Below, piece by piece: positions 40,939 to 60,353 of a DNA stretch of 64,000 bases. The notes beneath the pieces are model-generated. The model did not search any database and had not been told where the DNA came from. It saw only the letters and a list, made by a program, of their open reading frames with translations. The position numbers were made by a program, and so were the translations under genes. Every line of letters starts with the position of its first letter. The first letter of the stretch is position 1. Source of the DNA: Maribacter sp. BPC-D8 (GTDB lineage Bacteria > Bacteroidota > Bacteroidia > Flavobacteriales > Flavobacteriaceae); NCBI RefSeq assembly GCF_035207705.1, contig NZ_CP128187.1, forward strand, positions 2,542,001 to 2,606,000, read 5' to 3'.

Positions 40939-43900
40939 TTAATTAGGATCAACCGATGAGTTACTTTTCGCCTCTTTCGATTTAATGATTGCAAGCTCTG
41001 CTCTTGCCTCTGCTACAATTTCTGGGTATTGACTAAAATTGGTAATTACACTTTCTAGAATGTATGTTGCTTGGTAGGCATCATTTAACGCATAATAGTT
41101 TTTAGCCATTAACACTAAACCTTTACCACCCCATTCTTTATACGCTGCATAATCTTTAGCTAATTTTTGAACTGCAATATTAGAGTTCTCGTAAGATCCA
41201 TCTTTGTGTTCAAAATAGGCGTTATAATACAATGCTTCTGCAGCCGTTGCGCCCGATGCAATTTGTAATACCTCTGCATAGGCAGATTCTGCTTTTGCTT
41301 CGTCATTAGTTGCAATGGCAGATCTAGCAATCATAATATGCGCATCACTCTTAATTCTATTATCAATATTTGAAGTCGCTAATACCTTATCGGCGTATTC
41401 TATAGTCTTCGGATAATTCTTTTGTCCGTAATAGCCCTTCATTAGGTTAGAGCGAGCAAATGTTCTGTTCTGGGAAATGTTCGCCTGACTCTCTAATTTC
41501 AACAAGTACGGCAATGCAATTTGATAATCATCTTTAGAAATATAGACTTCACAAACACGAGTTAATGCCTGTTCTGCATATTCGCTAGTGCTTCTATCGG
41601 CAACATACTTGTAATATGGTAAAGCCGATTCTTTTTCTCCTTTTCCGAAGTACAACTGTGCTAAGCTAAAGTTGGCGTCAACCGCATGTAAACCAGTTGG
41701 GAACTGTTGTATGTAATTTTTATAGCCTTTAATAGCGGCATCAACATTACCTTCTAAATTCTGTTTTTGAGCAGCGTCAAAAGTAGCATTGTCCAATTCT
41801 GCATCGGTAACCTGTACAAAATCGAGTGTGCGAACCCACTCTGCATATTCATTTACACGACCCATATCTACATAGACCAATTTTGCCGTTGCTACAGCTT
41901 GTATTGCTTCTTGTGTTTTTGGAAAATCGCGAACAACCGTTTTAAACTTCGCCAAAGCAGCTTCGTTTCTTGCCGCATTGTAATTTACAAGTCCCTGTCT
42001 CATTAACGCCTGTGGCACTAACGAACTACCTTTGTATTCACTGATCAATCGATCGTAAGCAGCAAGACCTTTATTTTCTTGACCTTGAGAAACGTACGTG
42101 TTTCCTAATTCAAATAAGGCGTCATCCTTAAAACTTGACCTTGGGTATTGGCTTACAAATTCTTCTAAGTTTTCAATTTTGCTATCACCTCTATCCACAT
42201 AACCATAGCTCATCGCTTTTTGGTAAAAGGCATAATCTTTCTCTGGTCCGGTTAAAGCCAATGCTTTATTATAGGTTTCAATGGCTGGCCAGTATTTACT
42301 GGTAGCGTAGTAACTGTCACCCAATCTCAAATAACCATCATGTAATTTCTCTACTTCTGTATTTCCGTTTGATGTAAACGAATTGAAATAGGTAATGGCA
42401 TCGGTATAGTCTTTTTGTTTAAAATAGCCATATGCTAAATTGTAATCTACATCGGCATACATTTCTGTATTCTTTGCGGACGGATTATTCTTAAACGACG
42501 TATACCCTTTTACCGCATCATCAAAACGATTAGATAAGTAATCAGATTCTGCCTTCCAATAATTCGCTCTTGCCTTAAACAGCATATCTTCTGCATTGCT
42601 TAAAGATTTATTGAAGTTTTCAGCTGCAGCATTATAATCGCCTTCCATAAAAAGTTCGATACCTCTGTAATAAGCAACTTTTTGATAGACAGCTTTACTA
42701 GCATAGTTCTTATTCTCTTCTAGCAAAGTCATTGCGCCTGCGAAGTTTTTTGAAGTAATATATGAATCTACCAACAAGGTCTGCATCTCATCTTGGTGTT
42801 CATCTTTAGGGTAGGTTTTTAAATAATTTGTGATTACCTGCGGAACCGGCTCATAGGCATTACCCACCTCATAACTCAAGCGCGCATAATTCAAAAATGC
42901 ATCTTTCTGAATCTCGGCACTGTAATCCATTTGAGATGCATTACGGAAAGCATTTAAAGCTTCCTGCTTTTTATCCAACTTCAAATAACATTCTGCCAAG
43001 TGGTAATATGCATTCTGTGCAACGCTATTAGTACCGCCAATAATTTTATTGAATTGGGCGATGGCATTGCTATAATCTCCGCCTTTATAATACGCATAAC
43101 CTAAGTAATAGTAATCGGTATTGCTCCATTTACCACCTTTGCCGTTGTACTCTGTTAAATACGGAATAGCATTTTCGTACTGCTTCAAATTAAAGTAGCT
43201 CTCCCCTATAATCTTATTTAATTCAGATACTTCTCGTCTGTCAGCTTTTGTCAGTTGTTTTTTCGCCAAAGCAATCGCTTCTTCGAATTTACCCAACTTA
43301 AAATTCATGTCAGCCTGATAATAGCTCAACTTCTCCTCCAATACATCTTGATCGGTAATTTGATCAAAACGCTGGTTTGCAGTTTCGTAATCATCTTCTT
43401 GATAAGAAATATAACCCAAGTAATATTTTGCTTGAGAACCGTATACTTCAGAAGTTGTAACTTTTTCAAGATACTTTTCAGCTTGTTTTGTTTTACGAGA
43501 TGAGAATAAAGAGTAGCCGTAATTGAAGTTGAACTTATCCATCTCGCCACGAGAAAGTGAGTTCTGATCCACCTTGTCATACCATTTCAAAGCATACGGA
43601 TATTTACCTGTTTGAAAGTAGTACTCTGCCACATCGGCAAAGGCAGAATTACGTTTGGTAGAAGTCGGGTATTTCTCCACGAAATCTTCCATCAATCGGT
43701 CTGCACCCATCTGGTTTAAGCGTACTGCCGCATTGGCTGCGTAGTATGCACTATTGGCAGCGGTCTCCTCATCTTTTGTAGTCACTTTGACCTTCTCGAA
43801 AATGGTCTGTGCCGCTTGGTATTGTTCGTTGTTGTAAAGCGCTAGTGCGTCTTGGAATGCTTTCTGTTCGTGGGTATAAATCTTAGTTTCTTGGGCACTG

Positions 43901-46482: not shown

Positions 46483-49110
46483 ATGAAAAACCCTGAAAAA
46501 AAACGTTTAGACCAACAACATACAGAAGAAAAAGACTGGTTAAAATGGGGACCCTATTTAAGTGAACGCCAATGGGGTACGGTTCGTGAAGATTATAGTG
46601 CCGGTGGCGATGCTTGGAACTATCTGCCACATGATCATGCGAGAAGTCGTGCTTTTCGTTGGGGTGAAGATGGTATTGCAGGTATAAGCGACCGCTATTG
46701 CAATATGTGTTTTAGTATCGGTTTATGGAACGGTAAAGATCCTATTTTAAAAGAACGTCTTTTCGGGTTAACAGGTCCGCAGGGTAATCACGGTGAAGAT
46801 GTAAAAGAGCTGTATTACTATTTAGAGAATACGCCGTCGCACTCGTACATGAAGTATTTGTACAAGTATTCTCAGAAAGAATACCCGTACAATCAATTAA
46901 TTGACGAAAATCAAAAACGGAATCGGAAAGAGCTAGAATTCGAGTTATTAGATACCGGTATTTTCGATGACAATACCTATTTTGATGTTAGTACAGAATA
47001 TGCAAAAGGTGATGAAACTGATATTCTTATTCAAATTACCATTACAAATAGAAACTCGAAACCTGCACCTATTACGCTATTACCGCAAATGGTGATGCGT
47101 AATCATTGGTCATTTAAAGAGGTTTCTAAAAAACCCATTATTACGCAAAAAGGAACAAAAGCTAACCCATTTGTACACATAGACCACCCTTATGTAGGTA
47201 AGTACAACCTCTATTTTCAAAAGGCAGCGCATTTATTCTTCACGGAGAATGAAACCAACAAAGAGACAATTTACAAAGAAGAAAATGACCATCCGTTTAA
47301 GAAAGACTTGTTCAATACCGCAGTCTGTAATAATGATTTTGAGTTAGCGACAAAAAATAATTCGGGCACCAAATTTGCTCCGTTATATCAAGTCATTTTA
47401 GATGGTGGTGAATCAAAAACATTCCAACTTCGTTTAACAGAAGAAACCCTTGACGCACCTTTTTCAGACTTTGATTCCATATTCAAAAAGAGACAAAAAG
47501 AGTGTGCTCAATTCTATGATGAAATAGCCCCTAAAGCAACCGAGGATAGAAAGGCTATTTTAAAACAAGCATTTGCAGGTTTACTTTGGACGAAGCAGTA
47601 CTATAACTACGAAGTTGAAAAATGGCTAGATGGTGATTACAAAACTACTCCGCCACCAAAAGAAAGATTAGAAGGTCGTAACAGCCATTGGAAAACATTG
47701 CGTAATCACGATATACTTTCTATGCCAGATGCCTGGGAATACCCGTGGTATGCTGCGTGGGATTCTGCTTTTCATTGTGCATCGTTCGCCTCTATTGATC
47801 CAGAGTTTGCGAAAGACCAGTTGCTATTGTTCACGAAAGAATGGTACATGTCGCCTAACGGACAAATACCAGCTTACGAATGGAATTTTAGTGATGTGAA
47901 TCCGCCAGTTCAGGCATGGGCAACTTTGCAAATTTACGGTACCGATAAATCTATAACCGGCGTACCAGACATCAAGTTCTTAAAACGAATGTTCAATAAA
48001 CTCAACTTGAACTTCAACTGGTGGGTGAACCGTTTAGATAGAAATGACAACAATGTTTTTCAAGGCGGATTCTTAGGTTTGGATAATATCGGAGTATTTG
48101 ATCGTAGCCATGGTGTACCCGGTGGTGGTTCTTTAGACCAAGTAGATGGTACTGCTTGGATGGCTATGTACAGTCTAAATATGTTAGAAATTAGTTTGCG
48201 TATCGCAGAACATGACGATTCGTATGAAGATATGGCAACCAAGTATTTCGGTCATTTTGTATTCATAGCCGAAGCATTGAACAAAATGGATACAGATAAA
48301 GCTAACACGTGGGATGATGCCGAAGGATTCTTCTATGACCGATTGACATTACCGGACGGACAATCGACCACTATAAAAGTACGATCTATTGCCGGTATGT
48401 TGTCATTGGCAGCTGTACTTACCATTAAGAAAAGTGTGTTAGACAAATTCCCGAAATTTAAAGCAAGTGTTCTTTGGTTTAAAAAATACCGTGCAGAGAA
48501 TTTAAAATACGAGGTTATTCAGCAATATGAAGCAGATGGCGATTTACTATTGTCATTGGTTCCGAAAGATCGAATGCAAAAACTGGTTACTGCACTTTTA
48601 GATGAGAAAGAATTCTTGAGTGATTATGGTATTAGATCGTTGTCTAAAATACATGAAGATGCTTATCAAATTCATATCGATGGTATAGATTACTCCATTG
48701 ACTACGAACCTGCAGAATCTACAGTATCGCTCTTTGGTGGTAACTCTAACTGGCGTGGACCAATTTGGATGCCAATGAACTATTTATTCATTCAAGCATT
48801 GCGTGAGTACCAATGGTATGATGGTAATGATTTTCTTTTTGAATACCCAACAGGAAGCTCAAAACTACTGAATCTAAAACAGGTTAGTGATGAATTGAGC
48901 AAACGACTTATTAAGATGTTCGAGAAAGATGAAGCCGGAAACCGAGCCATCAATAAGAACTACGAGAAATACTACCAAGACCCTAATTTCAAAGATTTGA
49001 TTTTATTCTACGAGTATTTTCACGGAGAAAACGGTCGTGGTTTGGGAGCATCGCACCAAACAGGTTGGACAGCTTTAGTGGCCAACCTTATTGAGCAATT
49101 AGAAGATTAA
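46483..49110 (+). CDS. GH63-like (MGH1-type) glucosidase, 875 aa, copy 1
   Basis: A cytoplasmic-looking glycosidase (no signal peptide) of the mannosyl-oligosaccharide-glucosidase-like group. An N-terminal beta-sandwich (WGPYLSERQWGTVREDYS, FRWGEDGIAGISDR, LKERLFGLTGPQGNHGED) precedes an (alpha/alpha)6 barrel. The likely active-site Asp427 is in YAAWDSAFH. Conserved barrel motifs are QIPAYEWNFSDVNPPVQAW, GFLGLDNIGVFDRS, GNSNWRGPIWMPMNY (Trp757) and GLGASHQTGWTALVA. An alpha-glucoside or mannosylglycerate-type substrate is plausible. It is the last gene of the ftsE run and a clear paralogue of the gene at 57726-60353, which has the same length. Its stop is 8 bp from the convergent nhaD stop. 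Confidence 0.88.
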   Translation: MKNPEKKRLDQQHTEEKDWLKWGPYLSERQWGTVREDYSAGGDAWNYLPHDHARSRAFRWGEDGIAGISDRYCNMCFSIGLWNGKDPILKERLFGLTGPQGNHGEDVKELYYYLENTPSHSYMKYLYKYSQKEYPYNQLIDENQKRNRKELEFELLDTGIFDDNTYFDVSTEYAKGDETDILIQITITNRNSKPAPITLLPQMVMRNHWSFKEVSKKPIITQKGTKANPFVHIDHPYVGKYNLYFQKAAHLFFTENETNKETIYKEENDHPFKKDLFNTAVCNNDFELATKNNSGTKFAPLYQVILDGGESKTFQLRLTEETLDAPFSDFDSIFKKRQKECAQFYDEIAPKATEDRKAILKQAFAGLLWTKQYYNYEVEKWLDGDYKTTPPPKERLEGRNSHWKTLRNHDILSMPDAWEYPWYAAWDSAFHCASFASIDPEFAKDQLLLFTKEWYMSPNGQIPAYEWNFSDVNPPVQAWATLQIYGTDKSITGVPDIKFLKRMFNKLNLNFNWWVNRLDRNDNNVFQGGFLGLDNIGVFDRSHGVPGGGSLDQVDGTAWMAMYSLNMLEISLRIAEHDDSYEDMATKYFGHFVFIAEALNKMDTDKANTWDDAEGFFYDRLTLPDGQSTTIKVRSIAGMLSLAAVLTIKKSVLDKFPKFKASVLWFKKYRAENLKYEVIQQYEADGDLLLSLVPKDRMQKLVTALLDEKEFLSDYGIRSLSKIHEDAYQIHIDGIDYSIDYEPAESTVSLFGGNSNWRGPIWMPMNYLFIQALREYQWYDGNDFLFEYPTGSSKLLNLKQVSDELSKRLIKMFEKDEAGNRAINKNYEKYYQDPNFKDLILFYEYFHGENGRGLGASHQTGWTALVANLIEQLED

Positions 49111-49118
49111 AACTAGTA

Positions 49119-50423
49119 TTAATTCACCAACATAAAAGTTAAGATACCGGCAATGTAACCAACAATCGCTAACAACGATATATTCTTTAAATACCACATA
49201 AAATCAATTTTCAGGATACCCATAATGGCAACACCTGCTGCTGATCCAATGATAAGAATACTACCGCCTGTACCTGCGCAAAAGGCAAGTAATTCCCAGA
49301 AATCAGAATCAGGCGGGTAGGTATCTAAACTATACATACCCATGGTGCCCGCAACCAACGGCACGTTGTCTACAATAGAAGATAGTACGCCTATGATGGA
49401 GTTAACCGCATATATACTCTCGAAATTATCATCTAATAAACGAGACATATCGGCTAAATGTCCGGCAGATTGTAACGCCCCAACAGCTACTAATATCCCT
49501 AAAAAGAATAGAATACTTGGGGTATCAATTCTTCTCAACACATTAGAAATTGCTAGAGTTTTCTTTTCTTCTATTGTCTTGTTTCTATGTAATATTTCGG
49601 TAGTTATCCATACTACACTCAATCCTAATAATACTCCCATAAATGGTGGAAGGTGAGTAATAGTTTTGAATATAGGTACAAATAACAAAGCGCCAATACC
49701 TATAGAAAATACAAGATTTTTATCAAAATTACTCACTTCAAATCCATGAGAATCTACATCATTAATTTCCATAGATTTAGCGATATCACCTTTAAATCGA
49801 AATGAAATAATTGTTAACGGCACTAACAAACATACCAAACTCGGCAAGAATATTTCTTTAATAATATGCATAGCAGTTACTTGCCCACCGATCCAAAGCA
49901 TAATAGTCGTAACATCACCAATAGGTGACCACGCCCCACCTGCGTTCGCCGCTATAATTAAGAGACCGGCAAACATCCATAAATCCTTTTTCTCATGTAT
50001 CAGCTTACGAAGTAATGCTGACATTACAATTGCCGTAGTTAGGTTATCTAAAGCTGCAGATAAAAAGAAGGTTAGTAGACATAAAATCCATAATAACTTT
50101 ACGCGATTGGTGGTGGTAATTTTATCGGTAATTACAGAAAACCCTTCATGGGCATCAATAATTTCAACAATAGTCATTGCACCTAACAAGAAAAATAAAA
50201 TCTCTGATATTTCACCTAAATTCTCTCGTAGACTTTCAGTTACAAAATGAATAGATTCATCACCTGGCATTTCGGCGATGAACACATCTCGTCCCAAAAT
50301 ATAAATAACCCAACACAAAGTACCCGTTAATAAAGCCGTAGCTGCCTTATCAATTTTAACCGTGTGTTCTAATGCAATAAAAAAATATCCAACCACAAAA
50401 ATCGCGAGCAGTGTTAAATACAT
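49119..50423 (-). CDS. nhaD: NhaD-type sodium:proton antiporter, 434 aa
   Basis: NhaD exchanges sodium for protons across the inner membrane. The chain has about 11-12 membrane spans with the IT-superfamily signatures ALDNLTTAIVMSALL, GGAWSPIGDVTTIMLW and SSIVDNVPLVAGTMGM (a conserved Asp-Asn in each outer motif). The length is normal. It is the last gene of the four-gene cassette, 9 bp after the epimerase stop. This is an unusual partner for peptide-salvage enzymes. It is convergent with the glucosidase, with no terminator in the 8-bp gap. Confidence 0.9.
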   Translation of the reverse strand: MYLTLLAIFVVGYFFIALEHTVKIDKAATALLTGTLCWVIYILGRDVFIAEMPGDESIHFVTESLRENLGEISEILFFLLGAMTIVEIIDAHEGFSVITDKITTTNRVKLLWILCLLTFFLSAALDNLTTAIVMSALLRKLIHEKKDLWMFAGLLIIAANAGGAWSPIGDVTTIMLWIGGQVTAMHIIKEIFLPSLVCLLVPLTIISFRFKGDIAKSMEINDVDSHGFEVSNFDKNLVFSIGIGALLFVPIFKTITHLPPFMGVLLGLSVVWITTEILHRNKTIEEKKTLAISNVLRRIDTPSILFFLGILVAVGALQSAGHLADMSRLLDDNFESIYAVNSIIGVLSSIVDNVPLVAGTMGMYSLDTYPPDSDFWELLAFCAGTGGSILIIGSAAGVAIMGILKIDFMWYLKNISLLAIVGYIAGILTFMLVN

Positions 50424-50432
50424 GGCAAATAA

Positions 50433-51500
50433 TTAAAAGTTAGCTTCAGAAAAACCTAAACCGTATTCTTCAGTCGGATATAAAATTCCCCTTTCTAATT
50501 TAAAAATAGAATGATATGGGTCATCTATAATATCTAAATGTCCATCAAGATCAGCATACACAATGTTTGGTCTAGACAGGGCAAAATGTAACCCGGCAGC
50601 AATACCCAATCCACATTCGTCTATACAACCAACCATAGCGTCTAATTTAGCAGCTTTGGCAACGGAGTTGATATGCATACCTACCCAAATACCACCTACT
50701 TTCTGCAGCTTAATATTCACCATATCTACACGCTCGTTCTGCGCCAAACGAAATGCATCGGTCAATGTTTTTAAACTCTCATCTGCCATTACAGGTATAC
50801 TTACTTGATCGGTTACTTCGCCCAATCGCTCTTCTGCTTCTACTTTTGTAGGTTGTTCAAAAATCTCGATTCCGATTGCTGCTGTAGCCTTAACAAAATC
50901 TACAGATTCTTTCACAGAATACCCTTGGTTACCATCGAAACGCAATTCGATATTTGGGTACTTTTCATGAATCATTCTCATTTTGGCGATATCCTCTTCA
51001 AGATTAGCACCACCTTTTATTTTCAAAATAGTGAAGCCTTGGTTTACAAATTCGGTCGCTTTCAACAAAGTTTCATCTACACCCATAATACCGATAGTAA
51101 TACTGGTAGCAATGCTAGTACGATAGCCACCTAAAAATTTATACAAAGGCACCTCAGCCTTTTTTGACATGATATCGAACAAAGCCAAATCTACCATTGC
51201 TAGTGCTGAAGACCTTTTACCCAATAACTCTTTCAGTTCTAATAATAACAATGCATACGTAAAAGGATCTCTACCCAACAAATACGGAATAATGATATTT
51301 TTAATAGCATCGGTAACATCACTTGGCGATTCATTTGTAACCACAGGGTCAGGTGCTGCGCAACCATAACCCACAATTTTGGTATCAGTTTCAACCTTTA
51401 AAATAAAATTACTGGTACGGTCGATTGTTTCATAAGCAATAGTATAAGGATCAGACAATTTAAGGTCTAAACGCTCAAAAGAAATATGGGTTATTTTCAT
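50433..51500 (-). CDS. Dipeptide epimerase (L-Ala-D/L-Glu epimerase-like, enolase superfamily), 355 aa
   Basis: Enolase-superfamily epimerases invert an alpha-carbon by two-base catalysis. The catalytic pair is KIK (160-162) on one face and Lys264 (VNIKLQKVGG) on the other. The metal ligands are Asp189 (RFDGNQG), Glu215 (FEQP) and Asp240 (MADES). The DLD at 317-319 (VYADLDGHL) matches the DxD that in characterised L-Ala-D/L-Glu epimerases holds the free amino group of the dipeptide, so a murein dipeptide is a better guess than an N-acylated amino acid. The first 4 bp overlap the end of the DUF1611 gene, indicating coupled translation. Confidence 0.88.
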   Translation of the reverse strand: MKITHISFERLDLKLSDPYTIAYETIDRTSNFILKVETDTKIVGYGCAAPDPVVTNESPSDVTDAIKNIIIPYLLGRDPFTYALLLLELKELLGKRSSALAMVDLALFDIMSKKAEVPLYKFLGGYRTSIATSITIGIMGVDETLLKATEFVNQGFTILKIKGGANLEEDIAKMRMIHEKYPNIELRFDGNQGYSVKESVDFVKATAAIGIEIFEQPTKVEAEERLGEVTDQVSIPVMADESLKTLTDAFRLAQNERVDMVNIKLQKVGGIWVGMHINSVAKAAKLDAMVGCIDECGLGIAAGLHFALSRPNIVYADLDGHLDIIDDPYHSIFKLERGILYPTEEYGLGFSEANF

Positions 51501-52570
51501 TTTAATTTTGTCATTAAAAGTGCAATTAAATCTTCTGCACCATACTCTAAAACATCAAAAGCGGGTAATTTTGTTTCTAAGGTGATTGCCTTACAAACAT
51601 CAAGAATTTCCTCTTTTTTCATATCCTCATGGTTCACGGTAATGGCGATTACTTCTTTACCAGAAATGACTTGAATGGCATTTATCTGCTCTGCCAACGA
51701 GTGCATCTTATAACCTGGGAATCCGTCATACTCCAATCTTTTTGGCGCGTGTTGCAGAATTACATAATCTGGTCTACCGGCAGCCAAAATCTCAAATCCG
51801 CCAGGGTATGCAGGGTTCATTAAACTCCCCTGCCCTTCAATAACAATGACATCTGGGTCTTCATTTTTATAGGCACTGACTACCGCATGTTCGATTTCAC
51901 CTGAAACGAAATCGTTAATACAGCTATCCATCACCATACTATATTTAGCACCTTGCATCCATCCTGTTTGTCCGGTTCCTATCATTTCTGCCTTTTTACC
52001 CGCAGTACGAAATGCGTGAACCAATATCCAAGCGGTAGTACGTTTCCCTAAGGCAGAATCCGTTCCTAATACCGCTAATTTTAAGCAGTCTACTTTTTCA
52101 ATATCACCCGTAAAAAAGTGTAATTGATTACGATCGGGCGTTTTTCTAATATCTCTAATTTTTACGTTTTTCTCTTTTGCCAATGCCACAAGCTCAGGGT
52201 CATTAGTTAAGAAATCATGTAAACCACTATCTACGTTCCACCCATGTTGCAAAGCAGCTTTAATGGTCGCTTTGGCAACTTCTGGCAATCTACCACCATC
52301 TGGTGCAAGACCGATAACCAAATAACTTGGCAAATTATTACTCGCCGTAAGTGCAACAATAGCAGCTTCTAAATCTTTAAAAACAGGTATTCCGTTCGGT
52401 CTACCATCTAAAACATCGCCGGCATCTCTGCCTGCATATTTTTCATCTAATACACCCACAACTTCATAACGCTCGGTAAAGCGAACCAAACCATGTGCTG
52501 TTTTACCATTCGGAGTATTAAATGCTCCCTCACAATATACTAGTGCCTTACCGTCTATAACTTTTTTCAT
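51497..52570 (-). CDS. DUF1611 P-loop protein (DgcN-like), 357 aa
   Basis: The N-terminal ~150 residues look Rossmann-like (VVGVLDEKYAGRDAGDVLDG; YLVIGLAPDGGRLP). The C-terminal half has a P-loop of the form GTDSALGKRTT (169-179), a GQTGWMQG loop (200-207) and a Walker B-like VIVIEGQGS (241-249). It is complete and typical in length. A DUF1611 protein called DgcN has been described, as I recall, as a D-glutamate N-acetyltransferase in marine bacteria; whether this member does the same is unknown. It lies 8 bp after the PLP-lyase gene and overlaps the epimerase gene by 4 bp. Confidence 0.87.
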   Translation of the reverse strand: MKKVIDGKALVYCEGAFNTPNGKTAHGLVRFTERYEVVGVLDEKYAGRDAGDVLDGRPNGIPVFKDLEAAIVALTASNNLPSYLVIGLAPDGGRLPEVAKATIKAALQHGWNVDSGLHDFLTNDPELVALAKEKNVKIRDIRKTPDRNQLHFFTGDIEKVDCLKLAVLGTDSALGKRTTAWILVHAFRTAGKKAEMIGTGQTGWMQGAKYSMVMDSCINDFVSGEIEHAVVSAYKNEDPDVIVIEGQGSLMNPAYPGGFEILAAGRPDYVILQHAPKRLEYDGFPGYKMHSLAEQINAIQVISGKEVIAITVNHEDMKKEEILDVCKAITLETKLPAFDVLEYGAEDLIALLMTKLK

Positions 52571-52578
52571 CTATTTAT

Positions 52579-53640
52579 TTAATTTTTTGCAGTGAGCACT
52601 GCCACAAAACGGTCAGGCTCAAAATTCATTTTTTCGTCTAATTCTAAGAGTCCGATCAAACCCGCTGTCGATGCAGGTAGAATTCGAAATCCTTCTTTCT
52701 TATATAAAAGAGAAGTCATCTCTTTCAGTTTTTTATCGCTGATATTAAAAGCTTCCCCCTCAGATTCTTTCAATGCATACAATGCCTCTTCCCCATCGAA
52801 ACTATGCCAGTTAATTAATGGTTCGTTGTATTTTGTTTCTTTAATTGCCGCGGGATTCAAATCTTTGCAATGATCTAAATTTTGTAAAAACGACTCCACA
52901 ATCGGGTTCTTATGCGATGATGATGCCGCAATCATTTTAGGTATACGAGAAGTCTTTCCTCTTTTATACAGATTTACGAAGCCCCTATAAATTCCTGCAA
53001 ACAAGGTTCCATTAGAAACAGGTACCGCACAATATTTTGGTGCATCACCTAAATCTTCAAAAATCTCTTGTGCAATTTGCGCATAGGCAGATATTTGTAG
53101 CGGAGTGTTGGCACCACCAGGGTTGGCATCGTACCACCCATTTTCTGCCGCCAATTTCGAACTCTCCGTAACAACATCTTCGTAACTACCAGGTATACGA
53201 ATAATCTCTGCCCCCAAGGTTTCCATTTCAACCACACGATCGGTATGGTAACTTTCTGGAATGTAAATTTTACAGGCAATACCCGCTAGATCAGATGCCA
53301 GCGCCATCGCCACACCATAATTACCACAAGTAGCCAAGCTTACCACAGTAAACTCACGACGCAGCGCATCGTATAATTGTGCAAAAGCAATACGATCTTT
53401 TTGCGTTCCGGTAGGGTTGTCACCTTCATATTTAAGATATAGTTGACGAACATTGAACTCACGCTCTAAGGTTTTGGCTCTATGTAAACCCGTATCACCA
53501 ACTTCTAAACTTATAATATCTTCAAAGCACTCTAAACGGTCTACTAAAGATTTGCTTGTATCTTTAACCATATCGCTAAGTTTACGTGCCTCTATAGACA
53601 CTTTATTCTCAGCTGTTTTAACGCCATCTTTAAGATTCAT
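52579..53640 (-). CDS. PLP-dependent lyase/synthase of threonine synthase type, 353 aa
   Basis: A fold-type II PLP enzyme. The Schiff-base Lys81 is in DNPTGTQKDR, which replaces the usual S/TFKDR with TQKDR. The substrate carboxylate loop is ATCGNYGVAMA (103-113), and the phosphate-binding segment is VPVSNGTLFAG. The chain is shorter than true threonine synthases and lacks their N-terminal domain, so threonine synthesis is doubtful. A lyase, racemase or beta-replacement enzyme is equally possible. It is the first gene of the cassette with DUF1611, epimerase and nhaD, behind a partial promoter. Confidence 0.82.
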   Translation of the reverse strand: MNLKDGVKTAENKVSIEARKLSDMVKDTSKSLVDRLECFEDIISLEVGDTGLHRAKTLEREFNVRQLYLKYEGDNPTGTQKDRIAFAQLYDALRREFTVVSLATCGNYGVAMALASDLAGIACKIYIPESYHTDRVVEMETLGAEIIRIPGSYEDVVTESSKLAAENGWYDANPGGANTPLQISAYAQIAQEIFEDLGDAPKYCAVPVSNGTLFAGIYRGFVNLYKRGKTSRIPKMIAASSSHKNPIVESFLQNLDHCKDLNPAAIKETKYNEPLINWHSFDGEEALYALKESEGEAFNISDKKLKEMTSLLYKKEGFRILPASTAGLIGLLELDEKMNFEPDRFVAVLTAKN

Positions 53641-53906: not shown

Positions 53907-54812
53907 ATGAAAGCTACCCGAATCGTTTTTCTTTTTTCTTTCCTATTTTGCATAGTCACAAATGCACAAAACGAGCTACCGCTACAAATAGATAATTCGA
54001 AGATCAAACCCTTGCAAAAATTACTTGATAGTTCTTTGCAAACGAACCTTAGAGATGAATTGGCATCGCACCCAGAATGGAACGATCTTATTGCACAAAA
54101 GAAGATGTCAGTAGGTTTGGTTGATTTAAGCGATCCAGAAAATGTACGTTTTGCACGTGTAAACGGGAACCATATGATGTATGCTGCTAGTTTACCTAAA
54201 ATAGCTATTCTTCTCGCTGCTATGGATGCTATTGAGAAAGGTGAATTAAAAGAAACCGCAGAGGTTAAAAAAGATATGCGCCTAATGATCAGTAAATCTG
54301 ATAATTCTGCTGCTACTAGAATGATAGATCGCGTAGGTTATGAAAAGCTTGAATCGGTTATGACCGATCCTAAATATGCTTTTTACGACGAGCAAAAAGG
54401 TGGCGGACTCTGGGTTGGTAAGCGTTACGGCGGTGGTGGTGACACCAATCGCGAGCCACTTAAAAATCTAAGTCACGCTGCATCGGTAACGCAAGTATGT
54501 AGGTATTACTATTTATTGGCGAATGGTAAGCTCGTGAACCAAAAACGATCGAAGCAGATGCTAGATATTCTTGAAGATCCAGAGCTGCACCATAAATTTG
54601 TAAATACCTTAGATAAGATTGCACCGAATGCCAGATTGTTTAGAAAATCGGGTTCTTGGCGCACTTACCATTCCGACTCCATCTTGGTTTGGGGAAAAGA
54701 TAGTAATAGAAGATACATTCTAGTTGCCTTGATCGATGATGCCAATGGCGAACAAATTATAAGAGATTTAGTGAAACCAATTGAAAAGGTGCTAAAAAAG
54801 CCTGTACTTTAG
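53907..54812 (+). CDS. Exported serine hydrolase of the beta-lactamase/DD-peptidase fold, 301 aa
   Basis: A signal peptide (KATRIVFLFSFLFCIVTNAQ) precedes a class A-like penicillin-recognising fold. The three active-site motifs are present: SLPK (95-98, SxxK with Ser95), SDN (131-133) and KSGS (247-250, the KTG element). The omega-loop region between 160 and 190 is Gly-rich (GGGLWVGKRYGGGGDTNREP) and has no ExxLN, so the general base used by class A beta-lactamases is not visible. A peptidase or amidase acting on peptidoglycan peptides is therefore more likely than antibiotic hydrolysis. It is divergent from the epimerase cassette. Confidence 0.85.
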   Translation: MKATRIVFLFSFLFCIVTNAQNELPLQIDNSKIKPLQKLLDSSLQTNLRDELASHPEWNDLIAQKKMSVGLVDLSDPENVRFARVNGNHMMYAASLPKIAILLAAMDAIEKGELKETAEVKKDMRLMISKSDNSAATRMIDRVGYEKLESVMTDPKYAFYDEQKGGGLWVGKRYGGGGDTNREPLKNLSHAASVTQVCRYYYLLANGKLVNQKRSKQMLDILEDPELHHKFVNTLDKIAPNARLFRKSGSWRTYHSDSILVWGKDSNRRYILVALIDDANGEQIIRDLVKPIEKVLKKPVL

Positions 54813-54840
54813 GTCTTGGAATACACATTTCCATTTCTTG

Positions 54841-57663
54841 ATGGTAGAAAGACTCATTAAAAAAATATTCGATGTACGTGAAGGCGAGTTCAAAGTTTCT
54901 CTTTGGATGCTCGCCTACATTTTTTTTGTCATCGCCGTTCTGCTTATTATCAAGCCTACGGTCAACGCCCTTTTTCTATCAGAATTAGGCATTGAACAAT
55001 TGCCTTTTGCTTTTTTGTTAGTTGCTATAACTGCTGTAGCTACCTCTTATTTCTATTCAAAAGCTGTTTCAAAATTCCCGCTTAAAAAGGTAATTGAGGT
55101 TACCATTATTAGTTCTATTGTCATTTTAATAGGCTTGGGCATACTGCTCTCGTTAGATGTGGTCAGTGGCGTGTTGCTCTATTTCTTTTATATATGGGTA
55201 GCAATTTATGCGGTACTATCTGCTTCTCAATTTTGGGTGTTGGCAAACTTGGTCTTCAATATCAGAGAAGCAAAACGCTTGTTCGGTTTTATTGGGTCTG
55301 GTGCGATCATTGGTGGAATTTTTGGCGGATACCTTACTTCTATTCTTGCCCCACTAATCGGTAATGAAAACTTAATGTTCGTTGCTGCCCTATTGCTATT
55401 CTTTTGCATTCCGCTATTAAGAAGAATTTGGAATATTAGAGTTCATAAAAACGGTAGCGTCAAAAAACACAAGTCGGCTACCAACATTTCCGAACCACCA
55501 TTAAAACTGATCTTAAAATCTAAGCACCTTACCTATATAGCGAGCATCGTCGCGGTGAGCGTGGTCGTTGCCAAATTAGTAGATTATTTATTTAGTGATT
55601 TTGCCTCATCTGCCATAACCGATGCCGATGAGCTTACCGCTTTTTTTGCATTTTGGTTTTCCACCTTCAATTTATTATCGCTGGTGATACAGCTATTTTT
55701 TACGCATAGAATTGTGGGTATTTGGGGCGTTGGATTTTCATTGCTTTTATTACCCATTGGTATTTTCGGCGGAAGCATTTTGTTTTTGATGTTACCTGAA
55801 CTTTCTGCGGTAGTCGTTATAAAGGCGATGGATGGAATACTAAAACAATCTATACACAAAAGTGCTTCAGAATTACTGACCTTACCGCTGCCGTTTGACC
55901 TGAAAAATAGGACAAAATCGTTTATTGACGTCGTTGTAGATAGTTTGGCCACAGGTGTTGCCGGATGCCTTTTAATATTCGTAGTGCGTGGTCTAGACCT
56001 ACCGTCATTCTATATTGGCGTGCTAATTATCGTATTAGTGTGTCTTTGGCTCTACTTCATTTACAAAGTAAGAATAGAGTATTACAAGACCTTTAGAACA
56101 AACTTAGAGGTATTGACCGATAGTGGTAAGAAAGCTAAAAAAATCTCCCACTCAAAAGTATCTATAATAACTGGCATGCGCACGGTATTTAAAAACGGTA
56201 CCGAAGAGCAAATACTTTTTATGCTTGATAAATTGATGGAAATCAATGACAAACGTTTTGCAGAAGACGTAGAGCTATTGTTAGATCACCCGAGCAATAA
56301 AGTAAAATTATCGGCCATTCAGAATTTGTACTTTTTAAATTCTAAAAGTATGACTGCCGAGGTTTCTGAACTATTAAAAATTGATGATCGAGAATTAACT
56401 ATTGCGACATTAGCTTATGTATTGAGTTTTGCACACAAAGACAAATCGTTCGTGTTCGATACCTATTTAGAACATTCAAATGAACGAATTGCCATGGCAG
56501 CATTATACTGCTTGGCTAGAGCAGCAAAAAACAACTATTCTTTAAAACAACGCTACTCGCTATTAGATCGCATTTCAGTAGCGCTTAAAAATATTGAAAC
56601 GAATGAGAAGGATTTATCATACGTAGAAGCCGTAATTGAAATACTAGGTGTGGCGAATATGCCCATTTTCAACACCAAGCTTATTGCCTTTCTAAATCAT
56701 GATAATGAAGAAGTAGTACTAACAACGATTAAGGCTATCGGCACTGCCACGGACCCTAGCATGGTGCAACAAATAATTCCGTTTTTAGCACAGAAGAATT
56801 ATAGACCAACTGTAATGGAAGCTTTTAAAATCTATGGTCAGCAGATTCTACCGTTGCTACGTAGTACTATTCAAAATCGTCTACAACCATTACCTGTACT
56901 TCGGTTTATACCTGCAGCCATGCAATCTTTTCATTCAAAAGAAGCTGTGCATCATTTATTAGCCATTTTAACCGATAATGACCTTACTGTTCGTTTAGAA
57001 ACTATTCGTGCTTTGAGTGCCATACGAGCTACGCATCCGCAGTTAAAATTTAATCGTTACAAAGTGGTCTCGGTAATTTTTGATGAATGTAAACTGCATC
57101 ATCAGACCTTATCGTCAATGCATACCCAGATTATTGTATCGTACCGAAATAGAAACAAATCGAAGAAAGAAATTGGCGATGCCGAACGAGATGCTAGAAC
57201 TAGCCTTTTAGAATTATTAGAACGTCGTTTAGATTCTGGATTAGAGCGTATTTTCAAACTATTAGGTTTACGCTATCAGCAAAATGATGTTGCCATTGCG
57301 TATGAGGGCTTAATAAGTCAGAAACAGGAAGCGCAACACAATGCCATCGAATTCTTAGACAATCTTTTAACGGGAGAATTAAAGCGTAAACTCTTACCGA
57401 TTATTGAAGAATCTGCATTAGATATTTCATCGGAAGAAGAACTTCAAAAAATTAAACACAAAATACCGACAGAACTAGAATGCTTTAAACTGCTATTACA
57501 AGGGAATGACCTAAAGATTAAGCTAGCAGTGCTATACCTAATTACGCAACAAAAAGAACCGCGCTATTTAAGTATTGTCGAAAGCCTTCTTAATGATGAA
57601 GACCCAAAAATTAGGAGTTTTGCATTAGAAGCACATGAGGCTATCACATCTATAGTGTTGTAA
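54841..57663 (+). CDS. Nucleotide-carrier-like (NTT/MFS) membrane protein fused to HEAT repeats, 940 aa
   Basis: Residues 1 to about 420 form about 12 membrane spans (EGEFKVSLWMLAYIFFVIAV, FYIWVAIYAVLSASQFWVLA, GFIGSGAIIGGIFGGYLTSI) resembling the ATP/ADP carrier (NTT) family. From about 440 to the end is a cytoplasmic array of HEAT-like helical repeats (VELLLDHPSNKVKLSAIQNL, TIKAIGTATDPSMVQQII, LLNDEDPKIRSFALEAHEAI). The ATG at 54841 is used; the TTG codon just before it adds only one residue. It follows the serine hydrolase by 28 bp and is probably co-transcribed. The true substrate is unknown, since free-living members rarely import ATP. Confidence 0.83.
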   Translation: MVERLIKKIFDVREGEFKVSLWMLAYIFFVIAVLLIIKPTVNALFLSELGIEQLPFAFLLVAITAVATSYFYSKAVSKFPLKKVIEVTIISSIVILIGLGILLSLDVVSGVLLYFFYIWVAIYAVLSASQFWVLANLVFNIREAKRLFGFIGSGAIIGGIFGGYLTSILAPLIGNENLMFVAALLLFFCIPLLRRIWNIRVHKNGSVKKHKSATNISEPPLKLILKSKHLTYIASIVAVSVVVAKLVDYLFSDFASSAITDADELTAFFAFWFSTFNLLSLVIQLFFTHRIVGIWGVGFSLLLLPIGIFGGSILFLMLPELSAVVVIKAMDGILKQSIHKSASELLTLPLPFDLKNRTKSFIDVVVDSLATGVAGCLLIFVVRGLDLPSFYIGVLIIVLVCLWLYFIYKVRIEYYKTFRTNLEVLTDSGKKAKKISHSKVSIITGMRTVFKNGTEEQILFMLDKLMEINDKRFAEDVELLLDHPSNKVKLSAIQNLYFLNSKSMTAEVSELLKIDDRELTIATLAYVLSFAHKDKSFVFDTYLEHSNERIAMAALYCLARAAKNNYSLKQRYSLLDRISVALKNIETNEKDLSYVEAVIEILGVANMPIFNTKLIAFLNHDNEEVVLTTIKAIGTATDPSMVQQIIPFLAQKNYRPTVMEAFKIYGQQILPLLRSTIQNRLQPLPVLRFIPAAMQSFHSKEAVHHLLAILTDNDLTVRLETIRALSAIRATHPQLKFNRYKVVSVIFDECKLHHQTLSSMHTQIIVSYRNRNKSKKEIGDAERDARTSLLELLERRLDSGLERIFKLLGLRYQQNDVAIAYEGLISQKQEAQHNAIEFLDNLLTGELKRKLLPIIEESALDISSEEELQKIKHKIPTELECFKLLLQGNDLKIKLAVLYLITQQKEPRYLSIVESLLNDEDPKIRSFALEAHEAITSIVL

Positions 57664-57725: not shown

Positions 57726-60353
57726 TTAACTATTCTCGTCTAGCTCCATCACCAGGTTTGCAACCAAGGCAGTCCAACCAGTTTGATGAGACGCTCCTAA
57801 ACCTTTACCAGAATCGCCATCAAAAAACTCATAAAAGAAATGTTCCTTCTTAAAGTGCTCATTTTTTGTAAATACTTTATTGGCATCTTCTGAGTGGTAC
57901 ACGAACTTACCATCTTCATTAGGTTCGAACAACTTAATTAATCGTTTAGAAATCTCATTTGCAATTTCGTTCAGATTCATTTTTTTACCAGACCCTGTAG
58001 GAAATTCATATACATATTCTTTGCCATAATACGAGTAGTATTTACGAAGCGATTGTACGATCATATAATTTAAAGGCAACCAAATTGGACCACGCCAGTT
58101 AGAATTACCACCGAACATATTTGAACGACTCTCGCCAGATTCATACGAAATTTGGTGATCCCCATTATGCTTAAATACGTACGGATGCTCTTCATGATAT
58201 TTAGAAAGTGAGCGAATTCCGTAATCAGACAAAAACTCTTTCTCATCAAGTAAACGTACCAACAGTTTCTCTAATCGAAAGCCACGCATAATGGAAAATA
58301 GGTAATTACCATCTGAATTAAATTCTTCGATATTAGAAATTAAAGAAGCTAGATCTGGTCTTGTACGTACAATTTCTGCAGCTCGAGTCTTAAAATTCTT
58401 TAGTTCATCAAACAAATCCTTGTGAATAATCTCAACCGCAAACATGGGTATAATACCCACCAATGATCTTACTTTTAATCGGTCTGTATTTCCGTTCGAC
58501 ATTTCTACCACATCGTAATAGAAGTTATCCTCATCATCCCAAAGCGAAATATCTTTTTGTCCGATATGGTGCATTGCCCAAGCGATATTCAAAAAGTGTC
58601 TAAAGAATTTAGCCACACTATCTTCGTAGTTTGGGTTAATAGTTGCCATTTCTAATGACATACGTAGCATGTTCAAGGTAAACATCGCCATCCAACTGGT
58701 AGCATCTGCTTGTTGCATACGCGTAATTCCCTCTGGCATGTGGTTACGATCAAATACTCCGATATTATCCAAGCCTAAGAATCCGCCTTCAAAAAGGTTG
58801 GTTCCGCTTTTATCTTTTTGGTTCACCCACCAGGTAAAGTTGACCAATAATTTCTGATACGCTTTTTCTAAAAAGTCGGTATCGCCTTTACCGGTACGCT
58901 TTTTATCTTTCTCATAAACCGTCCACACTGCCCATGAATGCACAGGTGGGTTTACATCACTAAAATTCCATTCGTATGCCGGTATTTGTCCGTTGGGGTG
59001 CATGTAACTTTCCTTTAGCACCAACAGCAATTGCTCTTTAGCAAAATAAGGATCTATCTCAACGAAAGAAGCCATGTGAAAAGCAAGATCCCAAGCGGCA
59101 TACCATGGGTATTCCCACTTGTCTGGCATTGAAATTACGTGCCTATTGGTCAAATGCTCCCATTGTGCATTTCTAGAATCATTTCTATGAGGTTTCGATT
59201 CTCCTGGACCGCCAAACAACCATTTATATACATCGTAGTAATAGAACTGCTTCGTCCAAAGTAAACCTGAGAATGCTTTTTTAGCAATCTCTCGTTGCTG
59301 AGCTGGAAGCTCCTTTTTTAAAATATTTCCATAAAATTCTTCACACTCTTGAATTCTCTTTTCAAAAATGGCATCGTAATTACCCCAAGGGTCAGCGAGT
59401 TTTTTTTTGCTAAGACGAACCTTTATTGTTTTTTCTTCTCCAGATTTTAAGCGGAGTTTATGCCACACCGCAAATTTGGATCCTTTTTTATCAGGATTCA
59501 CAGTAGCTTGCCCATCTACCACATGGTCGTTAATACCATCTTTAACATAATCTACCTCATTAGGTACACCGTAAATACGTTGGTTGTTTGTTTCGTTTTC
59601 ACAAAAAAGCTGATCTCCATTCTCATGATAAAAATAATAACGACCATTTCTAGTACTACGAGATTGTACCGAATTATCTGAGGTTGATTTCATCTCAGGA
59701 CGTTCGAACCTATTATTATGTTTCCAGAAATTACGAAACCATAAATGCGGAAGCACATGAATATTCGCAGCTCTCGGACCTCTATTAATAACCGTTACTT
59801 TCATTAAAATATCACCAACATCTTCTTTGGCATATTCTATAAAACAGTCGAAATACGTATTATTATCAAATGCTTTGGTATCTAAAATTTCGAATTCAGA
59901 TTGCTCGCGATTTCTACTTTTATTCTTTCTTACCAGCTCTGCATAAGGAAACTTCTTGTGCGGATACTTGTATAAATATTTGGCGTACGAATGCGTAGGC
60001 GTTGACACTTGATGAAAATAAAGCTCTTTTACATCTTCGCCATGGTTACCTTCATCATTGGTTAAACCAAAAAGACGTTCTTTTAATATGGAATCTTTAC
60101 CGTTCCAAAAAGCAGGTGCTAGACATAGAATTTCTCTAGAATCACAGAATCCGCCAATACCTTCTTCCCCCCATCTATAGGCATTACTACGTGCTTTGTC
60201 ATGACCGACAAAACTCCATGCATGCCCTTCTGGACTATAATCTTCCCTTACTGTACCCCATTGGCGCTCTGCCAAATAAGGACCCCATCTTTTCCAGTTT
60301 TTATAATTATCCTCAACGGCTAATCTTTCTTCCTCAGCATTCTTATGGACCAT
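57726..60353 (-). CDS. GH63-like (MGH1-type) glucosidase, 875 aa, copy 2
   Basis: This has the same fold and length as copy 1. An N-terminal beta-sandwich (WGPYLAERQWGTVREDYS, YRWGEEGIGGFCDS, LKERLFGLTNDEGNHGED) precedes the barrel motifs YAAWDLAFH, QIPAYEWNFSDVNPPVHSW, GFLGLDNIGVFDRN, GNSNWRGPIWLPLNY and GLGASHQTGWTALVA. Differences are spread over the chain, as between old paralogues: for example HGENGRG in copy 1 is DGDSGKG here. No signal peptide. It stands alone, with a candidate -7 element 67 bp upstream (TAAATTTG, 60421-60428 on the minus strand). Substrate specificity may differ from copy 1. Confidence 0.88.
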   Translation of the reverse strand: MVHKNAEEERLAVEDNYKNWKRWGPYLAERQWGTVREDYSPEGHAWSFVGHDKARSNAYRWGEEGIGGFCDSREILCLAPAFWNGKDSILKERLFGLTNDEGNHGEDVKELYFHQVSTPTHSYAKYLYKYPHKKFPYAELVRKNKSRNREQSEFEILDTKAFDNNTYFDCFIEYAKEDVGDILMKVTVINRGPRAANIHVLPHLWFRNFWKHNNRFERPEMKSTSDNSVQSRSTRNGRYYFYHENGDQLFCENETNNQRIYGVPNEVDYVKDGINDHVVDGQATVNPDKKGSKFAVWHKLRLKSGEEKTIKVRLSKKKLADPWGNYDAIFEKRIQECEEFYGNILKKELPAQQREIAKKAFSGLLWTKQFYYYDVYKWLFGGPGESKPHRNDSRNAQWEHLTNRHVISMPDKWEYPWYAAWDLAFHMASFVEIDPYFAKEQLLLVLKESYMHPNGQIPAYEWNFSDVNPPVHSWAVWTVYEKDKKRTGKGDTDFLEKAYQKLLVNFTWWVNQKDKSGTNLFEGGFLGLDNIGVFDRNHMPEGITRMQQADATSWMAMFTLNMLRMSLEMATINPNYEDSVAKFFRHFLNIAWAMHHIGQKDISLWDDEDNFYYDVVEMSNGNTDRLKVRSLVGIIPMFAVEIIHKDLFDELKNFKTRAAEIVRTRPDLASLISNIEEFNSDGNYLFSIMRGFRLEKLLVRLLDEKEFLSDYGIRSLSKYHEEHPYVFKHNGDHQISYESGESRSNMFGGNSNWRGPIWLPLNYMIVQSLRKYYSYYGKEYVYEFPTGSGKKMNLNEIANEISKRLIKLFEPNEDGKFVYHSEDANKVFTKNEHFKKEHFFYEFFDGDSGKGLGASHQTGWTALVANLVMELDENS

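Follow-up and report, generated by a model that had tools for sequence, protein, structure and literature searches.

A three-gene unit conserved across lineages was found in a 64,000-nucleotide stretch of the Maribacter sp. BPC-D8 genome (RefSeq assembly GCF_035207705.1, contig NZ_CP128187.1, positions 2,542,001 to 2,606,000 of the forward strand; hereafter, the window). The unit encodes a pyridoxal 5'-phosphate (PLP) enzyme, a DUF1611 protein and a dipeptide-epimerase-type enzyme, and is followed in this genome by a gene for an NhaD-type Na+/H+ antiporter. The first three genes occur together more often than chance would allow, and they do so well outside Maribacter. Their linkage is stronger than could be known to the sequence-only reading that had described the four genes as one apparent transcript. 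Our preferred interpretation, put forward tentatively, is that the cassette may work by an "acylate and invert" logic akin to that of DgcN-DgcA, without being a member of that system, with a basic amino acid or dipeptide as its candidate substrate. The four genes are the following:

52579..53640, minus strand: gene 1, fold-type II PLP enzyme of the PRK06381/NF004996 "threonine synthase" type, 353 aa
51497..52570, minus strand: gene 2, DUF1611 protein, distant DgcN homologue and putative amino-acid N-acyltransferase, 357 aa
50433..51500, minus strand: gene 3, dipeptide-epimerase-type enzyme of the enolase superfamily, 355 aa
49119..50423, minus strand: gene 4, NhaD-type Na+/H+ antiporter, 434 aa

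A check of the open reading frames (ORFs) located all four on the minus strand, exactly where the sequence-only reading had placed them, and bore out its gaps of 8 bp (PLP/DUF1611), -4 bp (DUF1611/epimerase, with the epimerase start overlapping the DUF1611 stop) and 9 bp (epimerase/NhaD). Their Pfam assignments were, in gene order, PALP, DUF1611_N plus DUF1611, MR_MLE_N plus MR_MLE_C, and CitMHS.

Conservation of the Three-Gene Unit

A profile scan with the PLP protein revealed 89 related places, the best 80 of which were kept as loci, spread from Maribacter and Zobellia to a Saprospiraceae metagenome-assembled genome (MAG), Draconibacterium, and a Gemmatimonadetes MAG. The expected co-occurrence was confirmed for the first three genes as a unit extending beyond Maribacter: in 76 of the 80 loci the PLP gene was followed by DUF1611 on the same strand at a distance of no more than 186 bp, and DUF1611 adjoined the PLP gene in all 20 of the genomes, from a phylum sample of 395, in which the PLP enzyme was found (E <= 1e-50), 18 of these pairs being codirectional and 2 divergent. 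Two of the four loci without DUF1611 after the PLP gene are cut by contig ends, and the other two belong to Flavilitoribacter and to a Lewinella MAG with 2.5 kb left. Downstream genes were counted in the 71 loci where 5 kb or more of sequence followed the PLP gene, and 64 of them showed an epimerase gene on the same strand. The overlap between DUF1611 and epimerase genes was exactly 4 bp in 32 of the 45 loci measured.

The same linkage was seen from the side of DUF1611. A family-level search gave matches in 37 of 199 genomes; the regions read comprised 13 group-1 loci (at least 76% identity, own genome excluded) and 20 of the 24 other matches. The PLP gene was present in 13/13 of the former and in 0/20 of the latter. 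Flanking genes are common to Maribacter and its near kin. Neighbouring families were counted in 37 representative loci, picked to spread over lineages and all selected because they contain the PLP gene; apart from the core and a MurL-like/creatininase-like pair (see below), none was present in more than five. Across lineages the linkage is not mere synteny.

The antiporter gene was confined to Maribacter, being present in 5 of the 71 loci, all of that genus, and a tblastn search (E <= 1e-3) found no match to it in the other 75 of the 80 loci. The protein itself scored 166.3 bits on NF038006 (cut-off 80) and 380 bits on TIGR00775 (cut-off 577). On its distribution, NhaD was rejected as a member of the system, and the coupling to sodium/proton balance that had been proposed for the cassette is not a property of it, as the gene is a Maribacter-only neighbour among the loci read. 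It may be a local passenger or an ion-homeostasis add-on.

DUF1611 and Its Racemase or Epimerase Partners

The DUF1611 protein matched its Pfam family at 214.9 bits and the DgcN model at 154.5 bits, below the cut-off of 480; as positive controls, the annotated DgcN and DgcA of Ruegeria scored 551.4 and 507.9 bits on their models, these annotations probably coming from the same models. It also gave a profile match (6.5e-39) to PDB entry 7xrj, named there a putative epimerase/dehydratase, which we take to be the DgcN structure.

A racemase or epimerase relative adjoined DUF1611 in all 20 of the family-level loci outside group 1 that were read. Thirteen of these partners were epimerases at 28-37% identity, and seven were ornithine-racemase (Orr)-like neighbours, a call tested with a hidden Markov model in L055, made by eye in L060 and L062, and based on size and place in the remaining four. 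In group 2, the one locus tested carries DUF1611, an ornithine-racemase-like enzyme (about 387 bits of 480) and an M15 dipeptidase. In group 3, the two loci tested came nearest to DgcA (178 and 194 bits) and DgcN (237 and 209 bits), all below the cut-offs. In genome G176, a group-1 unit coexists with a group-3 (DgcN/DgcA-like) pair, which means that one does not substitute for the other in this genome.

Plasmids showed a similar picture, with DgcA, an Orr-like enzyme or a dipeptide epimerase in six of the seven annotated DUF1611 loci; one further DUF1611 plasmid, outside the seven, lacked annotation. Pairs of DUF1611 and an enzyme of the alanine/ornithine-racemase family were observed on plasmids of Vibrio lentus, Phaeobacter and Ruegeria conchae (L224, L225, L231), one of them predicted to be conjugative, one mobilizable and one non-mobilizable; on the ornithine-racemase model (cut-off 480), the V. 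lentus enzyme reached 376 bits and the Phaeobacter one 269 bits. The gene order in Ruegeria TM1040 is DgcN, DgcA and D-amino-acid transaminase, and on haloarchaeal plasmids DUF1611 is accompanied by dipeptide epimerases, one such pair lying beside an NlpC/P60 gene; Haladaptatus E1 is without the DxD motif.

An unrooted DUF1611 tree separates the sequences by type of partner: a split (ultrafast bootstrap, UFBoot, 100) sets group 1, together with two DUF1611 proteins whose partners are 3rit-like epimerases, apart from the Orr and DgcN clades. The kinship with DgcN and DgcA suggested by the sequence-only reading thus held in part: homology and the adjacency of DUF1611 to a racemase support it, and both curated cut-offs are missed, with the epimerase in another clade than DgcA. 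Since DUF1611 lies beside an amino-acid racemase or epimerase in most of the contexts read, the DgcN-DgcA parallel is a good lead.

The Epimerase

The epimerase scored 132.5 bits on the DgcA model (cut-off 400), 235.4 on NF041118 (cut-off 500) and 76.3 on PRK15129 (cut-off 343); the last two are models of L-Ala-D/L-Glu epimerases, and these score misses stand without a positive control. Residues K160, K162 and K264, presumably the catalytic lysines, D189, E215 and D240, presumably the metal ligands, as well as D51, D294, D317 and D319, were kept in 68/68 relatives. Position 24 is Arg in the solved epimerases 1jpm, 3rit and 3r0k and Glu in the window epimerase, with Glu24 found in 67 of the 68 relatives and Gln in the other; we take Arg24 to be a contact for the glutamate side chain in Ala-Glu epimerases. 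In addition, D51 and D294 of the window protein align with E51 and D296 of 3rit, the acidic residues at 51 and 296 being, we assume, relevant to the cationic (3rit-type) dipeptide epimerases. The PDB title of 3rit reads "complexed with Mg and dipeptide L-Arg-D-Lys", and that of 2p88 names an N-succinyl Arg/Lys racemase.

In an unrooted IQ-TREE phylogeny of 32 sequences, including five PDB references, the group-1 epimerases form a clade (UFBoot 100) that joins 3rit and the epimerases of loci L222 and L061, both DUF1611-linked (UFBoot 97), and the annotated Ruegeria DgcA joins group 3 (UFBoot 91). The epimerase therefore groups with 3rit, and not with the L-Ala-D/L-Glu epimerase 1jpm or with DgcA. 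This placement, together with Glu24 in place of Arg and the missed cut-offs of the DgcN, DgcA and Ala-Glu-epimerase models, runs counter to the D-glutamate or L-Ala-D-Glu substrate proposed earlier. The DxD motif cited in favour of that substrate is present as described (D317/D319), and it is not diagnostic of free-amine L-Ala-D/L-Glu dipeptides, as the annotated Ruegeria DgcA carries it too (as DLD).

The PLP Enzyme

The first gene had been described as an atypical threonine-synthase-like enzyme with TQKDR around the PLP lysine, and this description was upheld. The protein contains the motif NPTGTQKDR, with PLP lysine K81 within TQKDR, and scores 401.8 bits on NF004996 "threonine synthase", above a cut-off (266) reached in 0/14 control genomes. 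It was aligned with the T. thermophilus threonine synthase 1uim, and conservation was followed over 79 relatives. Residues S84, T88, N154, S155, R160 and N188 of 1uim, which we take to be its phosphate ligands, align with T104, Y108, G176, A177, Q182 and N210, so that four of the six (T88, N154, S155, R160) are replaced; Y108, Q182 and N210 are each kept in 79/79 relatives. The protein closes with TAKN at its C terminus. Elsewhere in the genome, next to ThrB, lies a gene for a canonical ThrC (283 bits, cut-off 167). On the separate ThrB-ThrC and the replaced ligands, identity as a threonine synthase was rejected, and the first gene is probably not one.

MurL-like and Creatininase-like Genes in Relatives

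In many relatives, two further genes separate DUF1611 from the epimerase gene, one for a 500-aa MurL-like protein and one for a creatininase-family protein of 266 aa. This pair was present in 23 of the 71 loci in which downstream genes were counted, and it is fused into a protein of 780-802 aa in five of the six f17 genomes, the f30 genome and the Gemmatimonadetes MAG. All ten MurL-like-positive genomes of the phylum sample also contained the PLP gene; Zeaxanthinibacter is an example of the five-gene form. The creatininase-family protein scored 234 bits on the creatininase Pfam model and 139 of the 172 required by the MftE model. The MurL-like protein has a QueC/QatC-like fold and is a distant homologue of MurL, QatC and Cap9 being fold matches only. 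Its link to MurL is a match to the NCBIfam model NF041275, not a direct comparison with a MurL sequence: the L044 protein reached 18.6 bits (E 5.2e-4) against a cut-off of 700, and 17 of 18 members matched the model (best 2.5e-6), versus 4 of 18 for QueC, both at E <= 0.1. An anti-phage role was considered and rejected, as seven proteins gave no PADLOC match at E <= 0.01. PMC5808125 describes MurL as being without known conserved domains, and a 2026 paper on the QueC family (PMC13329287) makes no mention of MurL.

The two genes are not in the window operon. A search of the window genome for a MurL-like gene, made without a control of its own, came back empty, as did that genome again in the scan of 395; the same query matched 8/16 and 10/395 genomes. 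A creatininase-like gene elsewhere in the genome was not searched for. Given the operon and this search, inversion in the window form would fall to the enolase-superfamily enzyme alone. The block of Muriicola marianensis (L221) is interrupted by a PPDK-domain gene and beta-lactamase-family genes, with the MurL-like, creatininase-like and epimerase genes further on. In Flavilitoribacter (L219:9484-10884) and the Lewinella MAG (L220:3733-5043), a gene for another enolase-superfamily protein comes after the pair; the L219 protein, the one read in sequence, has a twin-arginine (Tat)-like start. At 23% identity to the window epimerase, this protein looks like a different enzyme.

Flanking Genes and Regulatory Signals

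The NhaD gene converges with a gene for an MGH1-like glycosidase (46483-49110), the two stops being 8 bp apart. The glycosidase is one of two similar 875-aa MGH1-like/GH63-type proteins that flank the cassette, one on each side; this one was tested with Pfam and the second (57726-60353) was judged by eye, and both recur around the cassette in Maribacter. Divergent from the PLP gene, a class A beta-lactamase-family serine hydrolase is encoded at 53907-54812, with SxxK, SDN and KSG motifs read by eye; a gene of this family is divergent upstream of the cassette in 15 of 75 related loci. It is adjoined, in many Maribacter loci too, by a gene (54838-57663) for a 941-aa protein composed of an MFS-like membrane part and HEAT repeats.

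Other neighbours were seen in relatives. A protein with GNAT and carbon-nitrogen hydrolase domains is encoded near the operon in 5 of the 37 representative loci (L221, 1596-3125, minus strand; L141; L147; L203; L213), directly downstream of the epimerase in L221, whose protein was the only one tested with Pfam. A gene for a TerC-family membrane protein is found near it in another 5/37 list of loci (L136, L137, L140, L143, L214; Pfam on L136 and L137 only). A large protein with an export-signal-like start and a PPDK ATP-binding domain is inserted after DUF1611 at L052:4493-7453 (minus strand), and such insertions were detected in five Muriicola/Eudoraea loci of the 80.

No Rfam family reached the gathering threshold between positions 42000 and 62000 of the window, and sigma-70-like promoter sites (13) were not above shuffles (mean 18.4). 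The Bacteroidetes-type promoter pattern had no match near the cassette, its three matches in the window sitting elsewhere.

Proposed Function and Alternatives

In the acylate-and-invert interpretation, the DUF1611 protein would, by its homology to DgcN, acylate an amino acid at its amino group, and the enolase-superfamily enzyme, whose fold, lysines and metal ligands are present, would invert the alpha carbon beside the free carboxylate. The threonine-synthase-fold PLP enzyme may make or break the free amino acid. Rather than glutamate, the most likely substrate would be a basic dipeptide or a basic amino acid of the Lys, Orn or Arg type. In relatives, the MurL/QueC-type ATP pyrophosphatase could add a one-way, ATP-driven inversion, and the creatininase-like amidohydrolase would plausibly remove the acyl group. 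A wider version, which we consider rather unlikely, would have a five-enzyme operon, scattered over the phylum, cap a basic amino acid or dipeptide before inverting it, and the reaction would be driven one way by ATP where the MurL-like protein is present; DUF1611 would then be a general acyl-capping partner whose clade tracks the racemase type (Glu, Orn-like, Arg/Lys-like), MurL would be a QueC-fold enzyme, and the window would hold a reduced three-enzyme form. No description of the five-enzyme operon was found in the open-licence PubMed Central (PMC) literature.

Several observations weigh against this interpretation. The cationic substrate is made less secure by the nearest solved chains, which by sequence score are 3jva and 1jpm, ahead of 3rit, by the best NCBIfam model of the epimerase, which is a Thermotoga-type L-Ala-D/L-Glu epimerase (below cut-off), and by a tie of 3jva, 3rit and 1jpm in structure comparison (predicted local distance difference test of the epimerase model, 87). 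The pockets of 3rit and the window epimerase differ at residue 24, and the N-succinyl-Arg/Lys racemase 2p88 lacks both Glu24 and the DxD; the DxD kept in the window epimerase suits a free-amine dipeptide as well as an acylated amino acid. A reversible and an ATP-driven epimerase in one operon would be odd for a simple cycle. The adjacency of DUF1611 to a racemase or epimerase also has exceptions, namely a Vibrio nigripulchritudo plasmid, where DUF1611 has no neighbouring racemase, and loci L143 and L216, which carry the MurL-like pair and no epimerase in the stretch read, the L143 genome having none closer than 29%. The Flavilitoribacter genes are dispersed, with separate contigs for the PLP gene, the MurL-like pair and a DUF1611-epimerase pair. 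Finally, no transporter or peptidase gene is conserved with group 1 among the 37 representative loci, and both the substrate and the direction of the group-1 proteins (a D-amino acid made or consumed) are putative throughout.

That last absence, of uptake transporters and peptidases, would fit a biosynthetic cassette, in which the PLP enzyme would make an unusual amino acid, DUF1611 would add the cap, and the stereochemistry would be set by the epimerase, together with the MurL-like and creatininase-like proteins where present; the product would be a small D-amino-acid compound, for example a dipeptide, an osmolyte or a signal. Threonine-synthase relatives often act as synthases, the PLP gene comes first in the operon, and DUF1611 is adjacent to it in all 37 representative loci. 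A Rhodococcus plasmid (L229) offers a parallel, as its genes for a cysteine-synthase-family PLP enzyme and a dipeptide epimerase overlap by 4 bp and run with those for an ATP-grasp protein and an MFS transporter; the whole run, which looks biosynthetic, comprises ATP-grasp, hypothetical, PLP enzyme, dipeptide epimerase, MFS, methyltransferase and ABC transporter genes. However, no ligase or export gene recurs with group 1 in those 37 loci either, and related DUF1611 clades adjoin peptidases or genes of D-amino-acid catabolism, so we regard biosynthesis as somewhat unlikely. Salvage of cell-wall L-Ala-D-Glu or D-glutamate, coupled to Na+/H+ balance through NhaD, seems very unlikely: the homology to DgcN and DgcA, the Thermotoga-type model as the best epimerase match, the haloarchaeal pair beside an NlpC/P60 gene and the divergent beta-lactamase-family gene speak for it, but the curated cut-offs, the tree and residue 24 disagree with it, NhaD is rare, the DxD is shared with annotated DgcA, and other genomes of the family have a separate DgcN/DgcA-like pair, itself below the cut-offs.

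It is highly improbable that the relatives' MurL-like protein is a carboxylate-activating amide ligase of the QueC/Cap9/QatC type, in an operon that would conjugate an amino acid or modified base to an amine; the fold would allow for it, but the members match the MurL model far more often than QueC, PADLOC was silent on the seven proteins, and the window genome gave no match to the gene. Hardly credible is a second threonine synthase in an operon assembled by chance, which has the NF004996 score on its side and the canonical ThrC beside ThrB, the changed ligands and a linkage kept across the phylum against it.

If the acylate-and-invert interpretation is true, DUF1611 would be a marker of a family of capping-and-inverting pathways, with the partner enzyme predicting the substrate, and D-amino-acid metabolism in marine bacteria would extend beyond Glu and Ala. 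The MurL-like gene of relatives would, in addition, suggest a fold and a mechanism class for MurL.

Comparison with Known Systems

DgcN and DgcA are given in PMC11747546 as a D-Glu N-acetyltransferase (EC 2.3.1.312) and an N-acetyl-D-Glu racemase (EC 5.1.1.25). As in that system, DUF1611 is directly followed here by an enolase-superfamily racemase or epimerase, and the DxD is common to both; unlike it, the proteins fall far under both cut-offs, the epimerase belongs to another clade, and there is an extra PLP enzyme, to which group-1 relatives add the MurL-like and creatininase-like enzymes. Another DUF1611 clade pairs in the same manner with ornithine-racemase-like enzymes (269 to 388 bits, cut-off 480), which is part of the cationic lead.

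Among solved epimerases, the window enzyme resembles that of Methylococcus capsulatus (3rit/3ro6, L-Arg-D-Lys complex) in tree grouping and in the acidic residues at 51 and 294/296, and differs from it in Glu24 for Arg24 and perhaps in the group-1 position beside PLP and DUF1611 genes. With the Bacillus subtilis L-Ala-D/L-Glu epimerase 1jpm (35% identity) it shares fold, catalytic lysines, metal ligands and DxD, but it has Glu in place of Arg24 and stands apart in the tree. The PLP enzyme has the fold-type II core and PLP lysine K81 of threonine synthases (1uim, 2zsj), and departs from them in the presumed ligands T88, N154, S155 and R160 and in its TAKN end. Finally, the relatives' MurL-like proteins sit in another operon than MurL, and the first member fell far short of the model's cut-off; the profile match of nearly all members nevertheless ties them to MurL, which converts ATP to AMP, as a PP-loop enzyme would.

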